This document shows, piece by piece, positions 2,128-15,879 of a stretch of 64,000 bases of DNA. The DNA is taken from contig NZ_LIOL01000008.1 in the NCBI RefSeq assembly GCF_001418005.1, positions 62,001-126,000 on the forward strand. Reading direction: 5' to 3'. The position numbers and the translations under genes were made by a program. How positions within the stretch are numbered: position 1 is the stretch's first letter; each line of letters starts with the position of its first letter. The notes under the pieces are model-generated. The model saw only the letters and a program-made list of their open reading frames with translations. It made no database searches and was not told where the DNA came from. This stretch comes from Chelatococcus sambhunathii (lineage in GTDB: Bacteria; Pseudomonadota; Alphaproteobacteria; Rhizobiales; Beijerinckiaceae).

Positions 2128-3648
2128 TCAGTCATTGATGAAACCGAAGATACCGCGCGCCACGGCGGGCTGCGGAGCGTTGCTGCCCTTGCCGTAAACG
2201 CGGTTGAGGCGTCCGAGGAAGACCGTCTGCGGATCCATGGCGTCGGCAAAGCCGGCGTCAGGCCGGGTAACGGCATTGGCGCTCATGGGCTTGGCGATAT
2301 AGGGCGTGACGGCAATCATCAGCTCGCTCTCGTCGCGCTGGTAGTCGCGCGAGCGGAAGAGCGTGCCGAGGATCGGGATGTTGAGCAGGCCCGGGAAGCC
2401 GTTGATGGCCTGGCGCGACTTCTGCTGGATGAGGCCGGCCGTGACGAGCGTGCCGCCGGAAGGCAGTTCGACCGTGGTCTCCGACCGGCGCACGGTGAAG
2501 CCGGGGATGATGAGGGTGTTGCTGCGGTAAGTGTTCTGGTTGTCGATCTCCGACACCTCGGTCGCGACGCGCAGGCTCATGCGTGCTTCCGACTGCACGA
2601 CCGGCGTGAAGGTGAGGGCGACGCCGAACTTCTTGAAGGTCACCGTCGTCGTGCAGTTGCTGCCGTTCGGACCCTGGCAGTCGTAGCCGGTCGGGATCGG
2701 CACCTCGCCGCCGACGAGAAAGGTCGCCGTTTCGCCCGAAACGGCGGTGAGCGTCGGCTCGGCGAGGGTGCGGGCGACGCCGGCCTGCTCGAGGGCGCGC
2801 AAGGTCGCGGAATTGCCGCCGCCGCTGACGCCGATACTGCTCGCCGGCGATTCATTGCCGAGACCGAAGGCGTTGGTGACGGCCCCGGTCAATGTCATGT
2901 CGCCGAGCCGCCATTCACCGGTCGTGTCGATGCCGAGCTGCTTGACGACGTTGCGCTTGATCTCCGCCACGGTGACGCGGAGCATGACCTGATCCTTGCC
3001 CCGGATCGTGAGCGCGTTGATGACTCGGCTCGGGGAGCCGCCCGCTCCTTGGCCGCCACTTCCATTGGCGCCGCCGGTGTCGCCGAGGAAGGCACCGGCG
3101 ATATCGCTCGCTTGCTGGGCCTCGCCCGCATTGGCGACGGAGCCGACGAGGAGCACGGATTCGCCCGCCGGCTTCACCTCGATCTGGGCATGCGGCATGG
3201 CCGTGCGCAAGGTCTGACGCAGGATGTTGAGGTCCCGGCCCACTGTGATCTCGAAGGCCGCGATCTGCCGGCCGGCGGCGTCCATGACAAAGATGGAGGT
3301 GGCGCCGTCGGCGACGCCGATGAGGAAGACCTTGCGTGTCGAGCGCACCACGGCATTGGCGATCTTGGGGTCGGCGACAAAGACCTCCTTGGCGTCGCGC
3401 GGCAGATCGACCACGATCGAACGGCCGATGGAGAGGTCGATGCGGCGGGCGATGGCATGCTCGTCGCCGCCAACAGCGAGCGTGGGGGCGGCCATCGTTC
3501 CCTGCGGGGAAGCCGCCGCCGGCAGGGCGAGTGCCGCGGCGGCGAGGCCGGCGAGCAGGAGAAGCCGCAGGCTCCTCCGCTCGGCGGTTCCGGTGGCTTG
3601 CGGCCCGGGCGCCGCCGGCTGTGCTGTCTTGTGCATCGGGGCTGCCAT
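2128..3648 (-). CDS. cpaC: CpaC secretin of the Tad pilus
   Basis: A 506-residue secretin that forms the outer-membrane channel for the Flp pilus. A hydrophobic signal peptide covers about residues 27-46 (a start at Met5 is also possible). A pilus N-terminal domain follows (VDLPRDAKEVFVADP), then the secretin core with a VGGEVPIP loop and a C-terminal conserved stretch (GFPGLLNIPILGTLFRS). A central Gly/Ser-rich patch (about 190-205) with GGANGSGGQGAGG is probably a linker. Its start lies only 3 bases past the cpaB stop, so cpaB-cpaC are very probably one transcript. Confidence 0.93.
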   Translation of the reverse strand: MAAPMHKTAQPAAPGPQATGTAERRSLRLLLLAGLAAAALALPAAASPQGTMAAPTLAVGGDEHAIARRIDLSIGRSIVVDLPRDAKEVFVADPKIANAVVRSTRKVFLIGVADGATSIFVMDAAGRQIAAFEITVGRDLNILRQTLRTAMPHAQIEVKPAGESVLLVGSVANAGEAQQASDIAGAFLGDTGGANGSGGQGAGGSPSRVINALTIRGKDQVMLRVTVAEIKRNVVKQLGIDTTGEWRLGDMTLTGAVTNAFGLGNESPASSIGVSGGGNSATLRALEQAGVARTLAEPTLTAVSGETATFLVGGEVPIPTGYDCQGPNGSNCTTTVTFKKFGVALTFTPVVQSEARMSLRVATEVSEIDNQNTYRSNTLIIPGFTVRRSETTVELPSGGTLVTAGLIQQKSRQAINGFPGLLNIPILGTLFRSRDYQRDESELMIAVTPYIAKPMSANAVTRPDAGFADAMDPQTVFLGRLNRVYGKGSNAPQPAVARGIFGFIND

Positions 3649-3651
3649 GGC

Positions 3652-4446
3652 TCAGCGTCTCGGGGTCTGCACCGGCACGCCGAAGCGCACGATGGTGAGC
3701 GGGCCATCGTCGCCGCGGGTGATCGCGCCGGTATCGTTGGCATCGGCGAGGGAGCGCAGGGCGAGCGAGATCTGCCCCACCTTCTGGGCGAGCGTCAGGA
3801 CTTCCGCCTGGGCGGGATCGACCTCAAGCGTCGCCGTCTCGCCGGTGACGACCTTTTCCCCGTCCTTCTCCTGCACGGTCTGGCCGATGGCGAGCACGCG
3901 GATGTTGGTGAGGACGGTCTCGGCCACCGTCACGTCGACGCCCTGTTGCTTCGAGGCCTCCTCGTCGCGCCAGGTGCGGATGACGTCGACATGGTCGTTG
4001 GGCAGGATGAAGCCACCGGCGGAGGAGGCGCCGCGGTTGTCGATGCTGATGGCGATGGCGCGCTTGCCGGTGGGCAGGATGGCTGACATGAAGCCCGAGC
4101 CGTCGGCCTTGATCAGTCGCTCGTGTCGGACGGGCTCGCCCGCCAGGATGGCGGTGCGTGCGATCGCGCCGGAGATGTCCTCCATGGCGCCGGGGCTTGC
4201 CGCGCGGGTGATGGCGCCCTTTGGTACGCCATCCTCCGGCCAGGCCTGCCAGCGCAGGTCCGCCGCCTTGAGGCCGTTGCCCATGGGTACGTCGACGGCG
4301 GCGACGAGCACTTCTTCAATCTTCTGCGCCGGGGCGGTCGCGACGGGAGCCGGCGCGGGCGGCGGCTTGCGGCCTGCAGCGAGATAGGCTGCGGCCACGC
4401 CCGCGACGAGCGCGACGCCGAGGATGACGAGACGGGCTGGTTTCAT
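3652..4446 (-). CDS. cpaB: CpaB (RcpC-like) pilus assembly protein, SAF domain
   Basis: The 264-residue protein begins with a membrane anchor (LVILGVALVAGVAAAYLA, residues about 6-23) and carries a SAF domain near 45-110 (VAAVDVPMGNGLKAADLRW), the layout of CpaB/RcpC periplasmic proteins that stabilise the secretin. The rest is the RcpC-type C-terminal region. It is the first gene after a 122-base gap behind cpaA. That gap is AT-rich near 4488-4530, so a promoter of its own is possible. Confidence 0.92.
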   Translation of the reverse strand: MKPARLVILGVALVAGVAAAYLAAGRKPPPAPAPVATAPAQKIEEVLVAAVDVPMGNGLKAADLRWQAWPEDGVPKGAITRAASPGAMEDISGAIARTAILAGEPVRHERLIKADGSGFMSAILPTGKRAIAISIDNRGASSAGGFILPNDHVDVIRTWRDEEASKQQGVDVTVAETVLTNIRVLAIGQTVQEKDGEKVVTGETATLEVDPAQAEVLTLAQKVGQISLALRSLADANDTGAITRGDDGPLTIVRFGVPVQTPRR

Positions 4447-4568
4447 GTCGATCAGAGACCCGGACGAGGGTCACTCCCCCATTGTCGCGAATCTGATCAG
4501 CCAATCGTCAAATTATGGTTAACAGAACGTATGTCCGACCGCTCGAATGGTGCGCGTGGGTGGATCCC

Positions 4569-7832: not shown

Positions 7833-8471
7833 ATGATCGACCGTGAGGTCGCGACCAGGACGCGCATCACCACCGTCGTCTTCGACGTCGGCAACGTTCT
7901 GATTTCCTGGGATCCGCGCCACCTCTACCGCCGCATTTTCGACGGTGACGAGGAGCGGGTCGAGCGCTTCCTGGCGGAGGTCTGCACGCCGGAATGGAAC
8001 CTGGAGCAGGATCGCGGCCGTTCCTTCGCCGAGGCAATTGCGGAACGCGTGGCGGCGTTCCCGCAGTGGCGGGCGGAGATCGAGGCCTATGACCGGCGCT
8101 GGGACGAGATGGTGCCGGGTGCCATCGAGGGCACGGTGCGCATCCTGGAGGCGTTGCGCGCCGCCGGTGTGCCGACCTATGCCATCACCAATTTCTCGGC
8201 CGAGAAGTTCGCCCTCGCGCGTGCGCGCTTTCCCTTCCTCGAGGGCTTCCTCGGCACCGTCGTCTCGGCGCAGGAGAAGCTGGTTAAGCCGGACGAGGCG
8301 ATCTACCGCCTGTTCGTCGAGCGTTACGGCCTCACTGCCGCGGAGTGCCTCTTCATCGACGACAGCCCGGCCAATGTGGCGGCGGCCCGTGCCGTCGGCA
8401 TGGCCGCGCACCATTTCACCGATCCTGTCCGCCTGGCGCAGGCCCTCAGGGCCGAGGGCCTGCCCGTGTGA
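7833..8471 (+). CDS. HAD-family (IA) phosphatase, YihX-like
   Basis: A 212-residue haloacid-dehalogenase hydrolase. The nucleophile aspartate is D18 in VVFDVGNVL, motif III lysine lies in EKLVKPDEAIY and motif IV is FIDDSPANV. The DxGN form of motif I is shared with YihX-type sugar phosphatases. The frame is open from 7767, but the ATG at 7833 fits the family start (MIDRE...TTVVFDVGN) and has a GGGAG-like site upstream. The substrate cannot be told; the neighbour converging on it is a phosphohexomutase. Confidence 0.85.
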   Translation: MIDREVATRTRITTVVFDVGNVLISWDPRHLYRRIFDGDEERVERFLAEVCTPEWNLEQDRGRSFAEAIAERVAAFPQWRAEIEAYDRRWDEMVPGAIEGTVRILEALRAAGVPTYAITNFSAEKFALARARFPFLEGFLGTVVSAQEKLVKPDEAIYRLFVERYGLTAAECLFIDDSPANVAAARAVGMAAHHFTDPVRLAQALRAEGLPV

Positions 8472-8480
8472 TACAGACGG

Positions 8481-9980
8481 TCAGATCGTCTGGTTGTACG
8501 TGCCGACTTCCGGGTTCTCGCGCAGCACCGTGTCGACGGCCTTGAACATCTCGCGCATGCGCGCTTCCGACACCGGGCTCTCGACGACGACGACGAGTTC
8601 CGGCTTGTTGGAGGAGGCGCGCACGAGACCCCAGGTGCCGTCCTCGGCGACGACGCGCACGCCGTTCACCGTGACGAGGTCCGCGATCTTCTGTCCGGCG
8701 ACGGCCTCGCCCGCGTCCTTCATTGCGACAAAGCGCTTCACCACGCGCTCGACGACCTCGTACTTCACCTCGTCGGCGCAGTGGGGCGCCATGGTTGGCG
8801 AGCCCCAGGTCTTCGGCAGGTCGCGGTAGAGATCGGCCATCGACTTCGTCGGGTTGCGGTCCAGCATGTCGCAGACGGCGAGGGCCGTCAGGATGCCGTC
8901 GTCATAGCCGCGGCCGACCGGCTTGTTGAAGAAGAAGTGGCCCGACTTCTCGAAGCCAGCGAGCGCCGAAAGCTCGCTGACGCGGCGCTTGATGTAGCTG
9001 TGGCCGGTCTTCCAGTAATCCACCTTCACGCCATTCTTCTGCAGGGCGGGATCGGTGTTGAAGAGGCCGGTCGACTTCACGTCCACCACGAAGGTGGCAC
9101 CGGGGTGGAGGTTCGACAGGTCGCGCGCGAGCATGACGCCGATCTTGTCGGCGAAGATCTCGTTGCCCTCGTTGTCGACGACGCCGCAGCGGTCGCCGTC
9201 GCCGTCGAAGCCGAGGCCGACGTCGGCGCCCGTCGCGCGCACCTTCTCCGCCATGGCATGAAGCATCTTCATGTCCTCGGGGTTGGGGTTGTAGCGCGGG
9301 AAGGTGTGGTCGAGCTCGGCATCGAGCGGGATCACCTCGCAGCCGATCGCCTCCAGCACCTTCGGCGCGAAGGCGCCGGCCGTGCCATTGCCGCACGCGG
9401 CGACGACCTTGATCTTGCGCGTCAGCTTCGGCCGGTCGGTGAGGTCGGCGATGTAGCGGGCGGGGAAGTTCTCGACGAATTCATAGGCGCCGCCGCCGGT
9501 GAGGTCGAAGCTTGCCGACAGCACGATGTCCTTGAGCCGGCCCATCTCCTCGGGGCCGAAAGTGACGGGGCGGCGCGCGCCCATCTTCACGCCCGTCCAG
9601 CCGTTGTCGTTGTGCGAGGCGGTGACCATGGCGACCGCCGGCACGTCGAGGTCGAACTGTGCGAAATAGGCCATCGGCGACAGAGCGAGGCCGATGTCCT
9701 TCACCCGGACGCCGGCGGCCATGAGGCCGGAGACGAGGGCATATTTGATGGCCGAGGAATAGCCGCGGAAGTCGTACCCGGTCACGATCTCGGGCTTGAC
9801 CCCCATCTCCTTGATGAGCGTGCCGAGGCCCATGCCCAGCGCCTGCACGCCCATGAGGTTGATTTCCTTCTGGAACAGCCAGCGGGCGTCGTATTCGCGA
9901 AAGCCGGTCGGCTTCACCATCGGCAGCGATTCGTAGTCGTAGGTGTTCGGCGTCAGGGCCGGCAGAGGCTTCGGAAACAT
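8481..9980 (-). CDS. Phosphomannomutase / phosphoglucomutase
   Basis: The 499-residue enzyme interconverts hexose 1- and 6-phosphates for envelope polysaccharide synthesis. The phosphoserine loop TASHNDNG puts the catalytic serine at residue 122, and the metal loop DGDGDR lies at about 259-264. The C-terminal sugar-phosphate loop (RASSNKPELVVVVES) is present. The start at 9980 (MFPKPLPALTP) with an AGAAGGA site fits the family length; the frame is open to 10082 but the extension looks non-coding. It converges with the HAD gene, 9 bases apart. Confidence 0.92.
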   Translation of the reverse strand: MFPKPLPALTPNTYDYESLPMVKPTGFREYDARWLFQKEINLMGVQALGMGLGTLIKEMGVKPEIVTGYDFRGYSSAIKYALVSGLMAAGVRVKDIGLALSPMAYFAQFDLDVPAVAMVTASHNDNGWTGVKMGARRPVTFGPEEMGRLKDIVLSASFDLTGGGAYEFVENFPARYIADLTDRPKLTRKIKVVAACGNGTAGAFAPKVLEAIGCEVIPLDAELDHTFPRYNPNPEDMKMLHAMAEKVRATGADVGLGFDGDGDRCGVVDNEGNEIFADKIGVMLARDLSNLHPGATFVVDVKSTGLFNTDPALQKNGVKVDYWKTGHSYIKRRVSELSALAGFEKSGHFFFNKPVGRGYDDGILTALAVCDMLDRNPTKSMADLYRDLPKTWGSPTMAPHCADEVKYEVVERVVKRFVAMKDAGEAVAGQKIADLVTVNGVRVVAEDGTWGLVRASSNKPELVVVVESPVSEARMREMFKAVDTVLRENPEVGTYNQTI

Positions 9981-10095
9981 GGAGTTGGCTTCGTCCTTCT
10001 GATGGGCACTCGGGATAACGGGCTGTGGCTCGGCTCCAAGCCTCGCCGCCAATGGCGGCGGAAGCTGGACCGAGGGGATCAACGTCGCTTTTGCC

Positions 10096-10635
10096 TCAAG
10101 GTTTCAACACCATCGTGTCGGCAGTGGTCTCGAAGCCGCCGAGGCGGGAGAGGAACGACATGCCGAGGAGCCCGCCGGTGGCGAGCGCCTCGCGCTTGAG
10201 GATGACGGCATCCACGTCGCGCACGACGATGCTTCCGAGCCGCACCTCGCGCAAGATGCTGCGAGCGCCCAGCGTCACACCGTTGGCGGTGTTCAGCCGG
10301 TGCCTGTAGTCGCTCGGGAAGGGGCGCATGCCGACGCGCGCCGCATCGTCCTCGTTGAGGACGACAAGGCTCGCGCCTGTGTCGACCAGCATGCGCACAG
10401 CGACGCCGTTGATGTGCGCCGCGGCCACGAAATGGCCGTTGCGGTCCTTGGTCAGGTGTTCGCTCGTGCCGCTCGCCGGCGATGGGGCAGGGATGTCGAC
10501 GGCTGAGGCGGCCGCCTCCGTGTCGGCGGGTCCGCCCGGCCCCGAGAGGCGTCCGGCAAGATCGGCCGTGACGAACAGGGCGAGCGCGACCACGACGAGC
10601 GCCGCCGCCGTGGTTTTCACGATGAACCCCGTCAT
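10096..10635 (-). CDS. Membrane-anchored retropepsin-like aspartic protease (TIGR02281 type)
   Basis: A 179-residue protein with an N-terminal membrane helix (about 7-26), a low-complexity linker, and a clan AA aspartic protease domain carrying a single LVDTGAS active-site motif (about residues 83-89), so it must act as a dimer. NGHF and NGV turns before the motif and GLLGMSFLSRL near the end match the TIGR02281 family found in alphaproteobacteria. The start has an AGGAAGG site six bases upstream. The substrate is unknown. Confidence 0.85.
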   Translation of the reverse strand: MTGFIVKTTAAALVVVALALFVTADLAGRLSGPGGPADTEAAASAVDIPAPSPASGTSEHLTKDRNGHFVAAAHINGVAVRMLVDTGASLVVLNEDDAARVGMRPFPSDYRHRLNTANGVTLGARSILREVRLGSIVVRDVDAVILKREALATGGLLGMSFLSRLGGFETTADTMVLKP

Positions 10636-10717
10636 GCAGCCCTTCCTCGCGCGCGGCGACGTCCGGCGCCATCATGCGGGGCAAGCATGAACGGCGCGTG
10701 AACTGCCGGCGTGGACA

Positions 10718-11320
10718 TCAGAACGACGTGCGCTGGCGGATGGCGGCCGAGAGCGTGCCCTCGTCGAGATAGTCGAGCTCGCCGCCGACAGGCACGCCAT
10801 GGGCGAGGCGCGTGATCTTCACCGGCAGCTGCGAGAGGAGGTCGGTGATGTAATGGGCTGTCGTCTGGCCGTCGACGGTGGCGTTGAGGGCGAGGATGAC
10901 TTCCTTGACCTCCGGCGCAGCGGCGCGCGCAACGAGCCCCTCGAGGTTCAGATCCTCCGGCCGCACGCCGTCGAGCGCCGAGAGCACGCCGCCGAGAACA
11001 TGGTAGCGCGCGTTCATGACGGCCGCGCGCTCCAGCGCCCACAGGTCGGACACGTCCTCGACCACGATGAGGACGGAGGGGTCGCGCCGCGCATCGGCGC
11101 AGATGGCGCAGGGGTCGCTGGTGTCGACATTGCCGCAGCTGGAGCAGACGACGACGCGCTCGGCGGCGATGCGCACAGCCTCGGCGAGCGGCGCGAGCAA
11201 TTGCTCGCGCTTCTTGATGAGATGCAGCGCCGCCCGCCGGGCCGAGCGGGGGCCGAGCCCGGGCAGGCGGGCGAGAAGTTGGATGAGACGCTCGATCTCG
11301 GGTCCGACGGGTGAGGGCAT
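10718..11320 (-). CDS. recR: Recombination mediator RecR
   Basis: RecR works with RecO/RecF to load RecA at gaps and is 200 residues here, the usual size. The N-terminal helix-hairpin-helix ([16 protein letters not shown], about 19-34), a C4 zinc finger (C59, C62, C71, C74) and the Toprim domain ([15 protein letters not shown]) are all visible. It normally follows ybaB directly; here an AT-rich gene stands between, ending 5 bases before the recR ATG. The ribosome site is therefore inside the foreign-looking gene and is weak (TAAGAA). Confidence 0.95.
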
Positions 11321-11325
11321 TATTC

Positions 11326-11868
11326 TTACTGCAATTTTGTTTTCAGTTCCGCCCCTGCGAGTGAATGGCGGACAATCTGAAGTATAGCTTCTTGCGCGGC
11401 GCCTTTAAGCTCGTTCACCTTTTCGGCGGCGGCTGCTTCTTCCATCTTTCCGCTTGTAGCATCCAGTCCTGCCTGTCGCAGTACCTGGTCAAGGGAAATC
11501 TGTATATTCTTTGCCGTCTGAATCCTGTAAAACATCTCGTACAAAAAATATCGAACTTCTTCCCGTAATTTTTCGTCCGTTACAAAAATCATATGCTCCA
11601 TATTTCTATTAAAAATCTGTATAGTTGTTTCTATTATGTCGATAATCTTGTACGATATAAATCCATTGATCTTATAAATATTGTCAAGCTCAATAGCCAT
11701 GTCATGGACATATGATATTGTATATTTACAAAGCGTTCTCACGCTTAGGTCACGCTCACGTTGCTGTCTGGTGAACTGCCAACGCAAAGACCAATAGGCA
11801 CCCGCAAGCGTAAATACGCCCGCCACGATACCTCCGAGAATTGCAGCAAGGCTCTGTTCTAGGAACAC
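11326..11868 (-). CDS. AT-rich hypothetical membrane-anchored protein inserted in the ybaB-recR operon
   Basis: No family was recognised for this 180-residue protein. It starts with GTG at 11868 behind a GAGGGG site, has one N-terminal membrane helix ([20 protein letters not shown], residues 8-27), a basic [12 protein letters not shown] segment, then a long helical region rich in Ile, Glu and Lys. Base composition is far more AT-rich than everything around it, with ATA, TTT and AAA codons that are rare elsewhere here, pointing to recent transfer. Yet it fits tightly in the operon: 10 bases after ybaB and 5 before recR. Confidence 0.75.
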
Positions 11869-11878
11869 GAAATACCCC

Positions 11879-12202
11879 TCAGAACGGCAGCTTCATCCCG
11901 GGCGGCAGCGGCAGGCCCTTGGTCAGTTCGGCCATGCGCTCCTGGGCGAGGCGTTCGCCCTTCTGGCGCGCGTCGTTGCTGGCGGCGACGAGGAGGTCTT
12001 CGAGGATCTCCTTCTCGTCGGCGTTCATCAGGCTCGGGTCGATGCTGACGGCGCGGACTTCGCCCTTGGCGGTCATACGGATGGAGACCACGCCGCCGCC
12101 AGCCGTGCCCTCGACCTCGAGGTTGCCGAGCTCGGCCTGCATGTCGGCCATCTTCTGCTGCATGGCCTGCGCCTGCTTCATCAGGCCCATCAGGTCCTTC
12201 AT
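11879..12202 (-). CDS. YbaB/EbfC nucleoid-associated protein
   Basis: A 107-residue DNA-binding protein that dimerises as a small clamp on DNA. It begins MKDLMGLMKQAQAMQQKM and carries the central VSIDPSLMNADEKEILEDLL segment characteristic of the family. It lies 55 bases after dnaX on the same strand, matching the conserved dnaX-ybaB-recR order. The ribosome site region contains GGGAG upstream of the ATG. Confidence 0.95.
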   Translation of the reverse strand: MKDLMGLMKQAQAMQQKMADMQAELGNLEVEGTAGGGVVSIRMTAKGEVRAVSIDPSLMNADEKEILEDLLVAASNDARQKGERLAQERMAELTKGLPLPPGMKLPF

Positions 12203-12257
12203 GGTCGTGGCTCCCGCTCAAGCGATCAGAACATCGGGCGACCGGACGCCGGTCCGA

Positions 12258-14096
12258 TCAGAAGTCATCGTCGATATAGAGCTCTTCGTCCGCCGGGGCG
12301 AGCCCTTCCCCCACCGGCTGCGCCGGAGCTTCCTCGGCCGTGATGTTGCGCACGTCGACGATCGCGGCGCCGGGAAAGCGCTGCATCACCGCCTGGACGA
12401 GCGGGTGGCCGGCGACGCCGCTGAGGCGCTCGGCAGCTTCCGCTTCCGCCTTCTCGTGCAGGGTCGGGGTGTCGGATTCGCGGGCGATGGAGACGACCCA
12501 GCGCCGACCCGTCCACTCCTGCAGGCGGCGCGAGAGGTCGCCGGCGAGCGTCTTGCTCGCCCCGTCGACGAGCGCAAATTCCACGTGCCCGTCCTCGAAA
12601 TGGGCGAGGCGCACGTCGCGCTCCAGCGCGCGCTTCAGCCCGATGTCACGCCTTTCGCCGGCGAGCGCCACGAGGTCCTCGAAGCGGGCGAGCCGCATCT
12701 GCGGCACGGCGGGCTCCATGGCCGGGGCCGCGGCGGGCGCCCGGGCGAGGGTAGGGCCGCTCGCGGCCAGCATCGGGCGCGGGCTTTCGGTGCCGCTCAT
12801 CGTCGCGCCGCCACCGGCGGGCCCGGCACCGCCGCTGCCCGGGGGGGCGGAGGCATTGCCCTCGCGCAGGAGGCGCAGCGCCTCGTCCGGCGTCGGCAGG
12901 TCGGCGGCATAGGCGAGGCGCACCAGCACCATCTCGGCGGCCGCGATGGGTCGGGGCGCCGCCTGCACCTCCGCGATGCCCTTTACCAGCATCTGCCAGG
13001 TGCGCGAGAGGATGCGCACCGAGAGCCGCGCCGCAAAGTCGGTGCCGCGCGTGCGCTCGACGTCCGTTATGGCGGCATCCTCACCCGCGGCCGGCACGAG
13101 CTTGAGGCGGGTGACGAAATGGGTGAAGCCGGCCAGGTCGGTGAGAATGACGGCGGGATCGGCACCGGCGTCATACTGGCTCTTCAACTCGCCGAGCGCG
13201 GCCGGCAGGTCGCCGCGCATCACATGCTCGAACAGGTCGATGATGCGGCCGCGGTCGGCGAGGCCCAGCATGGCGCGGACCTCCTCGACGCCGACGCGGC
13301 CCGCCCCGTGGGCGATGGCCTGGTCGAGCAACGAAAGCGAATCGCGCACCGAGCCCTCGGCGGCACGGGCCACCATGGCGAGGGCTTCCGGCTCGGCCTC
13401 CACCGCCTCGGCAGCGCAGATCCGCGTCAGATGCGCGACGAGCGTGCCCGCCTCGACGCGGCGCAGGTCGAAGCGCTGGCAGCGCGAGAGGATGGTGACG
13501 GGGACCTTGCGGATCTCCGTCGTCGCGAAGACGAACTTGGCGTGCGGCGGCGGCTCCTCCAGCGTCTTCAGGAAGGCGTTGAATGCCTTCTCCGAGAGCA
13601 TGTGAACCTCGTCGATGATGTAGACCTTGTAGCGGGCCGAGACGGGGGCGTAGCGGATGCCGTCGATGATCTGACGCACATCGTCGATACCGGTGTGCGA
13701 GGCGGCGTCCATCTCCATCACGTCGACATGGCGCGATTCCATGATGGCTTCGCAGTGCACGCCGAGCTCGGGCATGTGGACGGTGGGGCCGGTGACGCCG
13801 GGGCGCTCGTAGTTGAGGGCGCGGGCGAGGATGCGCGCGGTCGTCGTCTTGCCGACGCCGCGCACGCCGGTCAGCATCCAGGCCTGCGGGATGCGGCCGG
13901 TCTCGAAGGCGTTGGAGAGCGTGCGCACCATCGCCTCCTGCCCGATGAGATCGGGGAAGGCGCGGGGGCGGTACTTGCGGGCGAGGACGCGGTAGGCGCC
14001 GGATTGTGGCGCGGGGGTCGGCTGCGGCAGGCCCGGCAGGGCAGGCGCATCGTCCGGTGCGCCGCTTTCGTCCGTCACGGTGTCGAAATCCGTCAT
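12258..14096 (-). CDS. dnaX: DNA polymerase III tau/gamma subunit DnaX
   Basis: The clamp-loader ATPase is 612 residues from the ATG at 14096, which has a GAAGGGG site; the frame stays open 15 codons further. Walker A GVRGVGKTT is at 77-85, followed by DEVHMLS and the sensor-1 region FVFATTEIRKVP. The four zinc-binding cysteines of the E. coli protein are replaced (PELGVHCEAI keeps only one), which is normal for alphaproteobacteria. A Gly/Pro/Ala-rich linker near 435-480 separates the clamp-loader core from the tau tail. Confidence 0.95.
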   Translation of the reverse strand: MTDFDTVTDESGAPDDAPALPGLPQPTPAPQSGAYRVLARKYRPRAFPDLIGQEAMVRTLSNAFETGRIPQAWMLTGVRGVGKTTTARILARALNYERPGVTGPTVHMPELGVHCEAIMESRHVDVMEMDAASHTGIDDVRQIIDGIRYAPVSARYKVYIIDEVHMLSEKAFNAFLKTLEEPPPHAKFVFATTEIRKVPVTILSRCQRFDLRRVEAGTLVAHLTRICAAEAVEAEPEALAMVARAAEGSVRDSLSLLDQAIAHGAGRVGVEEVRAMLGLADRGRIIDLFEHVMRGDLPAALGELKSQYDAGADPAVILTDLAGFTHFVTRLKLVPAAGEDAAITDVERTRGTDFAARLSVRILSRTWQMLVKGIAEVQAAPRPIAAAEMVLVRLAYAADLPTPDEALRLLREGNASAPPGSGGAGPAGGGATMSGTESPRPMLAASGPTLARAPAAAPAMEPAVPQMRLARFEDLVALAGERRDIGLKRALERDVRLAHFEDGHVEFALVDGASKTLAGDLSRRLQEWTGRRWVVSIARESDTPTLHEKAEAEAAERLSGVAGHPLVQAVMQRFPGAAIVDVRNITAEEAPAQPVGEGLAPADEELYIDDDF

Positions 14097-14195
14097 CGGC
14101 CCCTTCACGCTGCGGCTCACGGGGAGCGTGGCCGCAACCACGTGTCCGACGCCGTGGGCGACGTTCCGAGAGCGAGGCCAGATCCCGGTCTGATA

Positions 14196-14292
14196 GGTGG
14201 GAGGCTGAACGAAGACCCGCCCGTGCTCGTTAGGGCTGCTTCCTTCCGGACCTGACCCGGTTGGCGAGTGGAACGTCCAACGCCAACCTCCC
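14196..14292 (-). ncRNA. ffs: Signal recognition particle RNA (4.5S type)
   Basis: On the minus strand the SRP apical loop motif GGTCAGGTCCGGAAGGAAGC is present (complement of about 14234-14258), the Ffh-binding domain IV. Flanking bases GGGAGGTTGG at the 5-prime side and CAGCCTCCC at the 3-prime side pair to close the rod, giving a small RNA of about 97 bases. It lies 100 bases upstream of dnaX in the same direction, a common alphaproteobacterial position. Ends are estimated from pairing. The rest of 14097-14461 shows no gene. Confidence 0.93.
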
Positions 14293-14461
14293 GCCCCCTA
14301 TATCGGGGATCGTGGCCGCTTGTGCAAGCTTCAAGCGGGAGCCGCTCCACAGCGCGGGGCGCGCGAATGCGCGCCCCGCCCACTTTCGTCGTTGGCCGAT
14401 CGCCGCGGCAGGCCTATAGATTGGGCAATTGCCGGACCGACCGGATGCGGACCTCCCCGAC

Positions 14462-14887
14462 ATGCCAGACAGCGCCACCGATGCCTTCCAGCTCGACGCA
14501 CGCCTTGAGGCGGACACGCGCGCCATTGGCGAGCTTGGGCTGTCGCGACTCCTCCTGATGAACGACAGCCGCTTTCCTTGGCTCATCCTCGTGCCGCGCC
14601 GGGCGCAGGCGCGCGAACTCGTCGATCTGTCGGAAGCGGACCACGCGACGCTGAGCGCCGAGATTAGGCAGGTGTCGCAGGCGCTGCGCGATCTCGTGCC
14701 GACGGACAAGCTCAACGTGGCGGCGCTGGGCAACATGGTGCCGCAGCTGCATGTCCACGTGATCGCGCGTACGAGGGGCGATGCCGCCTGGCCGGGCCCG
14801 GTCTGGGGCGCCGGCCGTGCCGAGCCTTATGATGTCGCCGCGGCCGAGCGCCTCATGGCGGGACTGCGCGCCCGGCTTGGCCTATGA
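14462..14887 (+). CDS. HIT-domain protein
   Basis: A 141-residue histidine-triad-like nucleotide-binding protein. The signature reads QLHVHVIAR, so the first histidine of the triad is glutamine while H97 and H99 remain; this variant is usual in the rhizobial members that continue with a WPGPVWG motif, also seen here. The ATG at 14462 is preferred over a TTG at 14429. Its last codons overlap nudC by four bases (ATGA), tying it to NAD or nucleotide turnover. The exact substrate is not known. Confidence 0.88.
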   Translation: MPDSATDAFQLDARLEADTRAIGELGLSRLLLMNDSRFPWLILVPRRAQARELVDLSEADHATLSAEIRQVSQALRDLVPTDKLNVAALGNMVPQLHVHVIARTRGDAAWPGPVWGAGRAEPYDVAAAERLMAGLRARLGL

Positions 14888-15879
14888 CAGGAATGGAATG
14901 TATGGCCCGCAACATGTCCGACAACACGGCCTTACCGGCCGGCGAGATCTTTCCTGAACGGTCGGCGCGGATCGGCTTCTCCCGCAACCGTCTCGTCCGC
15001 CACTCCGAGCGGCGCGAGAAGGCGAGCGACATTGCAGCGATGATGGCGCTGCCCGAGGCGCGCTCCTTCGTCATCGCCGGAGACGTCCCGATCCTCAGGC
15101 GCGATGGCGAGGCCTTCACGCCCCGCTTCACCATGGCCGAGGCCGGGGCGCTCGCCCCGGTCGCCGAGACGGCCCTGCTCGGCACGCTCGACGGTACGCC
15201 GTTGTTCGCGACGCTGATCGCAACCGGCGAGGTGGAGCGGCTCAAGGAGACCGGCCTGTTCGCCATCGACCTGCGCTCCATCGCCGTGCAGGGTCTGTTG
15301 CCGCAGGACGAACTCGGCCCGCTCGGCGAAGGCAAGGCCCTGATGGATTGGCACCGCCGGCACGGCTTCTGCGCCAATTGCGGAGCGCGGACGGCGAGCG
15401 CCAGCGGCGGCTGGCGGCGGGATTGCGCCGCCTGCGGGGCCCAGCACTTTCCGCGCACCGACCCGGTCGTCATCATGCTGGCGGTTCGTGGAGACCGTTG
15501 TCTGCTCGGCCGGCAGGCGCGCTTCGCGCCCGGCATGTATTCCTGCCTCGCCGGCTTCGTGGAGCCGGGCGAGACGGTGGAGGACGCCGTGCGCCGCGAG
15601 ACCATGGAGGAGGCAGGCATCCGCACCGGGAGGGTGCGCTACCTCGCCTCGCAACCCTGGCCGTTTCCGTCGTCGTTGATGGTCGGCTGCCTCGCCGAGG
15701 CCCTCGACGAGGATCTCGTGGTGGATGCGATCGAACTGGAGCACGCGCGCTGGTTCACGCGGGCGGAGGTCGGTGCCATGCTGCGCGGCGAGCACCCGGA
15801 CGGGTTCACCGCCCCGCTGCCCTTCGCCATCGCGCACCACATCCTCAAGGCCTTCGTCGAGGAGGGCGAGAGCTTCTGA
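14884..15879 (+). CDS. nudC: NADH pyrophosphatase / RNA NAD-decapping hydrolase NudC
   Basis: A 331-residue Nudix enzyme that splits NAD(H) to NMN(H) and AMP and removes NAD caps from RNA. The C4 zinc site is complete (C163, C166, C181, C184), the Nudix box GFVEPGETVEDAVRRETMEE follows, and the NudC-specific SQPWPFPSSLM stretch marks it out from generic Nudix proteins. The start ATG overlaps the HIT gene stop, so the two are translationally coupled. Confidence 0.95.
   Translation: MTGMECMARNMSDNTALPAGEIFPERSARIGFSRNRLVRHSERREKASDIAAMMALPEARSFVIAGDVPILRRDGEAFTPRFTMAEAGALAPVAETALLGTLDGTPLFATLIATGEVERLKETGLFAIDLRSIAVQGLLPQDELGPLGEGKALMDWHRRHGFCANCGARTASASGGWRRDCAACGAQHFPRTDPVVIMLAVRGDRCLLGRQARFAPGMYSCLAGFVEPGETVEDAVRRETMEEAGIRTGRVRYLASQPWPFPSSLMVGCLAEALDEDLVVDAIELEHARWFTRAEVGAMLRGEHPDGFTAPLPFAIAHHILKAFVEEGESF

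Follow-up and report, generated by a model that had tools for sequence, protein, structure and literature searches.

The window analyzed here, a stretch of 64,000 nucleotides from Chelatococcus sambhunathii on a host contig of 187 kb, raises the question of how an AT-rich gene came to lie between ybaB and recR, and of what it does there. A core operon whose translation is coupled does not seem a likely site for foreign genes. We think it fairly probable that this is a stand-alone, membrane-tethered accessory gene that has been acquired horizontally, and repeatedly, at the ybaB-recR slot, where it would be read together with recR.

An AT-rich gene between ybaB and recR

The features of the locus to which we refer below are the following (with the evidence for each in parentheses).

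11326 to 11868, minus strand: foreign gene for a 180-aa, single-TM helical protein of a family here called RNRE (ORF, composition, profiles, model)
11879 to 12202, minus strand: ybaB, EbfC/YbaB DNA-binding protein, upstream flank (Pfam PF02575)
10718 to 11320, minus strand: recR, downstream flank (Pfam Toprim and RecR domains)
12258 to 14141, minus strand: dnaX, upstream of ybaB (Pfam PF12169 and others)
11869 to 11878, minus strand: junction from ybaB stop to insert start, 10 nt (sequence)
11321 to 11325, minus strand: junction from insert stop to recR start, 5 nt (sequence)
11797 to 11853, minus strand: predicted N-terminal transmembrane segment, residues 6-24 (hydropathy, charge, conserved TM columns)
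11593 to 11607, minus strand: motif R-N-M-E-H, residues 88-92 (alignments)
11839 to 11850, no strand: inverted-repeat arm, 12 nt, near the insert 5' end (11/12 match to the partner arm)
11325 to 11336, no strand: inverted-repeat partner arm, at the insert 3' end (11/12 match to 11839-11850)

The reading frame starts with GTG and encodes 180 aa, and the insert contains nothing besides this gene; dnaX, ybaB, the insert, and recR all lie on the minus strand. The sequence and the Pfam assignments of the flanks confirm what an earlier note on this DNA had reported, namely an AT-rich ORF 10 nt past ybaB and 5 nt ahead of recR. That note had also called the codon use unlike that of the neighbors, and so it is. 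The gene has a GC content of 0.43 (GC1/2/3 of 0.52/0.33/0.45), and its GC3 of 0.45 compares with 0.89 in recR, 0.94 in ybaB, and 0.91 in dnaX. In 500-base windows, GC is 0.44-0.47 across the insert versus 0.64-0.76 over the rest of positions 8000-15000. The GC3 of 51 other ORFs chosen in the window ranges from 0.62 to 0.94, a range biased upward by the choice rule (which demanded GC3>GC1>GC2); the sliding GC shows the same dip without that bias. The codon-position pattern is what one would expect of a coding frame derived from AT-richer DNA.

That the gene was imported, as had been proposed, is backed by this foreign composition and by the results from 59 relatives (three congeners included), in which a search with the window protein gave no convincing match. 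Four weak matches there (E 0.035-0.074) fell in much longer frames (309-782 aa) and were not counted, and the own genome holds one match at E <= 1. A recR gene turned up in 57 of these 60 genomes, the own genome counted. The suggested comparison with close relatives delivered part of what was hoped for: the ybaB-recR spacers of the three congeners (299, 45, and 106 bp) lack the gene in every case, but no shared end sequence of the insert was found, nor was a donor or an integrase. Direct searches of genome contigs, viral contigs, plasmids, and phages with the window protein gave no homolog. Viral contigs gave no match to an alignment of the RNRE family (A1), and among the relatives introduced below, the G076 protein had no match in plasmids and phages and the L154 protein none in plasmids.

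The congeners also offer an observation on the spacer itself, which changes quickly between them although the coding flanks are largely alike. In the closest congener (G001, locus L007), the same slot holds the 299 bp spacer, which is GC-rich and has stretches that look palindrome-like by eye.

A diverged family and its positions in the order

Four further members within the order came from genome-wide searches that used no positional information. A single-sequence search of 397 order genomes gave new matches in G381 (E 4.5e-6) and G076 (E 1.1e-4), a three-row profile run over the order brought in G118 (E 4.4e-10), and a four-row profile over 87 genomes of G076's family brought in G834 (E 0.003). 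The last profile search, over 387 order genomes, gave no further convincing member; its weak matches in G081 (E 0.003, 598-aa frame) and G157 (E 0.007, 374-aa frame) were not counted, and neither was G773 (E 9e-4, 302-aa protein) from the class-wide search described below. Rather than being common in the order with normal composition, which would speak against import, the gene matched 3 and then 4 of the 397 genomes (own included). All five members are AT-rich (GC 0.43, 0.39, 0.38, 0.42, and 0.32), with a surrounding GC of 0.52-0.67 for three of them and flanks of 0.62 in G834 and 0.69 in the window.

The order members share 15-23% identity. With the database size set to 5000, leave-one-out profiles recovered the window protein at E 4.7e-18, G834 at 1.4e-5, and the other three at 1.1e-17, 7.4e-23, and 5.4e-14. 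It should be noted that G834 is a tentative member, taken in on its two weak scores (E 0.003 and the leave-one-out value) together with its position in the slot. As judged from pairwise scores, kinship among the members does not follow that of the species: G076 and G834, which belong to the same family and whose recR genes are 80% identical, score 7 bits, whereas G076 and the window protein, from different families, score 23 bits.

In G076 (L037), G118 (L041), and G834 (L051), the family gene lies exactly between ybaB and recR. The slot thus holds four of the five order members, window included, spread over three families. Because a genome offers several thousand intergenic sites, we infer that this recurrence at one site is not chance. 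The fifth copy (G381, L036 1474-2016) follows argG, and the ybaB-recR spacer of G381 itself measures 177 bp and has no family gene. Frames are intact in three of the four slot copies; that of G118 (L041 1492-2031) has one internal TGA, which may reflect decay, readthrough, or a sequencing error, and is otherwise open. The broken frame suggests that the gene can be dispensable.

For a survey of the slot, 200 of 210 fetched loci were parsed (196 unique), in a set that over-represents the families to which the window and G834 belong. The unparsed loci are L017, L141, L192, L194, L198, L247, L248, L249, L253, and L256, and the survey ran without the recR loci of G038, G049, G057, G088, G124, and G851. 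The spacer has a median of 42 bp (200 loci), and among the 196 unique slots it reaches at least 200 bp in 36, at least 300 bp in 24, and at least 500 bp in 18; with such counts, the earlier statement that dnaX, ybaB, and recR are almost always contiguous is too strong. The RNRE family was found at 3 of the 196 surveyed slots, with G076 (outside the survey) as the fourth, rather than across most of the order as for a core operon gene. No other spacer of at least 120 bp matched the RNRE profile at E <= 1.

These counts bear on a quite different history, in which the gene is an ancestral part of the operon, fast evolving and always located between ybaB and recR in the order, that has been lost many times, so that the spacers seen today are its remains. 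The precise fit in four genomes, the copy already broken in G118, and the fact that nothing left over from the spacers of relatives can be seen next to the insert (see below) would all suit it. But with so few slots occupied, dozens of losses would be needed, and the foreign composition would have to persist for the age of several families; the similarity among members ignores species kinship, and the other spacers of at least 120 bp do not match the profile at E <= 1. We consider this history decidedly improbable.

A second alternative draws on the same survey. The spacer may simply tolerate small genes that keep recR translated, in which case the gene would be a neutral passenger of no use to its host. 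Several long slots in other lineages do hold unrelated ORFs (by eye, cupin-like, SDR-like, glyoxalase-like, MOSC-like, RNA-binding, and membrane-protein), and the internal stop in one family copy points the same way. However, the unrelated inserts are near their flanks in composition (GC difference from the flank of -0.12 to +0.10). By contrast, the spacers of at least 300 bp whose GC is 15 points or more lower than that of the flanks (3 of 24, to which G076, outside the survey, would add a fourth) all belong to the RNRE family, which random tolerance does not predict. Given this, and the intact frames of three slot copies out of four, a passenger seems unlikely.

Two other arrangements were seen at recR. 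A cupin-like gene of host composition lies between ybaB and recR in G054 and G134 (L137, L191, L193), of one genus. In L089 (G846, 3107-4500), a LysR-like gene (by eye) follows recR and is itself followed by a second copy of the last ~28 codons of recR, at 86% identity, as if something had integrated at the recR 3' end with duplication.

Fit of the insert, expression of recR, and route of entry

Under the repeated acquisition that we favor, members would have been taken up from an AT-rich pool on several independent occasions, into the ybaB-recR spacer of related higher-GC alphaproteobacteria. The junctions suggest how this could be accommodated. In the window they read TGA-10 nt-GTG at the start and TAA-5 nt-ATG at the end; in G834 there are 11 nt and then a one-nucleotide TAATG overlap with recR, and in G076 and G118 there are 7 nt, and the insert overlaps recR by four nucleotides (ATGA). 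Relative to the recR ATG, the ends of the four slot copies fall between -4 and +5 nt. Three of them have TGAGG at the ybaB stop, and the TGAGGGG just 5' of the window GTG looks like a ribosome-binding site. For E. coli, the parts of PMC9610160 that concern this operon describe ybaB and recR frames that overlap by one base, with coupled translation, and a recR start with no ribosome-binding site nearby. An insert that starts just past the ybaB stop and ends on or near the recR ATG would keep such coupling, which would account for its being tolerated in the operon. The gene would occupy the spacer from the ybaB stop to the recR start, probably using the putative ribosome-binding site at the ybaB stop, and ribosomes would feed into recR via the overlapping or near-abutting stop and start, so that recR expression is kept. 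Translation of recR in the window strain would then follow that of the insert.

Co-transcription, which the close fit had been taken to imply, is plausible with gaps of 10 and 5 nt and no terminator-like site found between 11200 and 12000. The further claim that recR now depends on the insert stands less firmly. It is plausible, as the congener spacers are replaced and the copies end so close to the recR start, but there are promoter-like sites inside the insert. Five such sites occur between 11200 and 12000 (shuffle mean 0.7, both strands), three of them on the strand of the gene and within the insert or at its end. AT-rich DNA readily yields promoter-like sites. Because the sites exceed those of shuffles, recR may have its own transcript and may not depend on the insert.

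The flanks were compared in 60-nt windows for traces of the route of entry. The windows that abut the insert are 100% and 98% identical between the window and its closest congener, and 88% and 100% identical between G834 and L054. The first window of recR is lower in G076 (75-77%, although two unoccupied relatives differ equally, at 77%) and in G118 (70%, a figure without such a control). Import together with flanking donor DNA was considered and rejected, given that the identity windows of G000, G834, G076, and G118 show no clear donor-like stretch; the flanking DNA resembles that of the host right up to the junction, and hence there is no sign of a long, recent import from a distant donor. 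By eye, there is no remnant of the 115-116 bp spacers of the nearest unoccupied relatives beside the G834 insert, and none of the congener spacers beside the window insert, except for GGGG after the ybaB stop, which is shared with G001.

Conserved ends would point to a mobile element (a transposable element or an integron cassette), but shared terminal repeats are not supported. The window has an inverted repeat (11/12) that is reached in 1 of 300 shuffles and is possibly chance, and the other four order members have no equally good repeat.

What would fit these junctions is a swap of whole spacer alleles between close relatives via recombination in core genes. That one family has entered one slot repeatedly, with no other strongly AT-rich insert seen there in the survey, points either to an entry mechanism in which codon boundaries are respected or to selection tied to the operon. 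A bolder reading would make the ybaB-recR junction the dedicated home of a rapidly diversifying family of membrane-tethered proteins. These would protect the RecFOR/clamp-loader operon or exploit it (by sensing phage interference with repair, for instance), would be kept in step with RecR by translational coupling, and would have one AT-rich allele after another swapped in from outside. We give this bolder reading little credence.

The protein, its wider relatives, and known systems

The membrane-anchored product proposed in the earlier note is borne out at the level of hydropathy prediction, with a single hydrophobic segment that spans residues 6-24 and has a mean Kyte-Doolittle value of 1.97; the net charge is -1 ahead of the segment and +3 over residues 28-45, which follow it. 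The R-rich stretch RQQRER follows on the cytosolic side. As positive charge follows the segment, the C-terminus is predicted to be cytoplasmic. This order of N-terminal TM helix and basic stretch is present in the window protein by hydropathy, charge, and alignment, and it belongs to a core that most members share, in which the two are followed by [IVL]-x-[IL]-[FY]-x-R-N-[RM]-E. R88, N89, and E91 are conserved in all 20 rows of alignment A8. Among the five order members, R88 alone of the motif is invariant (G118 has R-Q-R-E and G834 has R-N-V-S). The motif sits near the end of the second predicted helix.

AlphaFold2 models, made with 20 sequences, point to an essentially helical protein. The model of a wider relative (the L154 protein) is confident (pLDDT 94.1, pTM 0.78) and has a very long N-terminal helix and then helices at 82-100, 102-107, 111-148, 152-194, and 199-209; the window protein (pLDDT 76.3, pTM 0.51) has predicted helices at 2-68, 73-95, 99-132, and 143-179. 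We thus picture the product as an inner-membrane protein in which one N-terminal TM helix would run on into a cytosolic helical domain with an R-N-R-E-like motif, this domain being a helical bundle in the confidently predicted relative. The structure-based search that had been suggested gave a resemblance to helical bundles but no significant Foldseek match: at E <= 0.001 there were 0 matches in the PDB for both models and 0 among viral models for one. VIA-align, run on the L154 model only, had sensor domains and designed four-helix bundles among its highest-ranking entries; the best, a designed four-helix bundle, has a Z of 12.6, a level that VIA calls common for bundles. The lack of other folds in that set proves nothing. 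Because the bundle fold is common, it gives no function.

Relatives also occur at other loci in other alphaproteobacteria. A class-wide profile search matched 4 of 385 genomes (own included) and added G428 (E 2e-9) and G741 (E 6e-9), both of one genus, in which 11 of 31 genomes carry a relative. Their leave-one-out E-values near 1e-30 mean little, the two being close to each other. The two copies have a GC3 of 0.87 and 0.77 and a GC near that of their loci, and the G428 protein is identical over its 210 residues to the protein of L154. A genome-contig scan with an alignment of these resident genes gave 77 candidates, of which 22 were confirmed; the titles of their records include Alphaproteobacteria, Proteobacteria, Rhizomicrobium, Caulobacteraceae, and Caulobacterales. 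In hhalign, the resident profile is matched at 97.2% (E 3.4e-11) by the profile of the five order members, with G381 among them, but at only 57% (E 1.1e-4) by the window protein alone. The resident alphaproteobacterial family (L154-L175) is like that of the order in its N-terminal TM-like helix, its R-N-R-E motif, and its predicted helix order. It differs in a composition near that of the local DNA, in its loci, in its length (~200 aa), and in sequence (15-21% identity to the window protein); no Pfam or NCBIfam match is common to L154-L175.

The loci of these relatives bear on whether the protein works with RecR. As a tether or guard at the membrane, it might sense or control the RecFOR machinery, and four of the five order members at ybaB-recR, with overlapping or near-abutting stop and start, are what such a partnership would produce; repeated landing in the slot would then be explained. 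Yet 36 loci at which relatives lie outside the slot (stretches of 3.1-6.6 kb, some genomes contributing several) showed no match to ybaB or recR, whereas the same query recovers both genes in 3 of 3 slot loci. Of the loci read in the resident genus, several share what by eye is a DEAD-box helicase and/or a DUF188-like neighbor, and others have different neighbors (again by eye, thymidylate synthase, for example); the G381 copy, as noted, follows argG. We therefore regard a functional partnership with RecR as very unlikely. Because relatives elsewhere have no recR neighbor in the stretches examined, the RNRE protein probably acts alone at the membrane, in a role that would not be tied to RecR.

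As for what that role might be, a benefit in protection against phages or other invaders is our favored guess. It is a plausible but tentative one, suggested by the pattern of a sporadic, foreign, fast-diverging, membrane-anchored gene rather than by library matches, which do not establish it. The window protein has weak matches, none significant, in Pfam, PHROGs, PADLOC, and the PDB sequences; NCBIfam has no match to the window protein by itself, and its matches to the member set are weak. The PADLOC model PDC-M37B matches the window protein at E 0.00097 (weak, with no curated cut-off), but it is absent in G428, G741, G381, G076, G834, and both G118 pieces, and in the member set it matches 1 of 20 (at the E-value of the window protein). 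Two 1TM effector models (E 0.003 and 0.006) each match weakly in 1 of 20 members, and SieB matches the membrane stretch of the G381 protein at E 0.0096, below the cut-off; other weak PADLOC matches (BrxC, type I methyltransferase, Cas8, HEC-08) are equally scattered. The defense or regulatory module suggested in the earlier note gains no support from PADLOC, whose matches are weak and uncorroborated.

Such matches could be read as those of a phage-defense effector proper, a 1-TM protein that blocks superinfection or kills the cell once infected, and that sits in a DNA-repair operon for constitutive expression. The sporadic occurrence, AT-richness, fast divergence, and single membrane helix with a cytosolic helical part would all agree with this, but none of the library matches is common to the homologs and no known defense partner is among the adjacent genes. 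A CBASS 1TM effector would be expected beside a CD-NTase; the adjacent genes here are dnaX, ybaB, and recR, and those beyond were read by eye only. Defense taken by itself is a possibility that we hold with considerable doubt, and the same function is the one favored within the preferred reading, in which a repeatedly acquired accessory protein would have a protective role (defense or superinfection-exclusion-like) that is functionally separate from RecR.

CBASS 1-TM effectors and superinfection-exclusion proteins such as SieB combine a single-helix anchor with a cytosolic part. The RNRE protein resembles them in this respect and in size, and it differs in its neighbors and in having no significant sequence match to them. 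Titles and abstract starts in the open-licence part of PMC yielded nothing on the family or on a recurrent gene at ybaB-recR; RNRE, with its motif and its predicted fold, is an undescribed family of proteins.

The slot also invites comparison with horizontal-transfer hotspots that have no mobile elements; according to parts of Oliveira et al. (2017, PMC5635113), such hotspots turn over through recombination at the core genes on either side. As far as those parts describe them, the two are alike in a sporadic foreign gene between conserved core genes, in that no integrase is seen, and in lineage-specific contents. Unlike such hotspots, the slot holds a single gene inside an operon, with overlapping or near-abutting stop and start, its flanks show no clear imported segment, and one family makes up the strongly AT-rich inserts. 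It offers a simple case of a repair gene whose expression may hinge on the end of a foreign one. The dnaX-ybaB-recR operon of E. coli, in the portions of PMC9610160 that treat it, has the same flanking genes without the extra, unrelated gene seen here between ybaB and recR, and the overlap by which the G834 insert meets recR is of the same kind as the one-nucleotide overlap of ybaB and recR in that operon.
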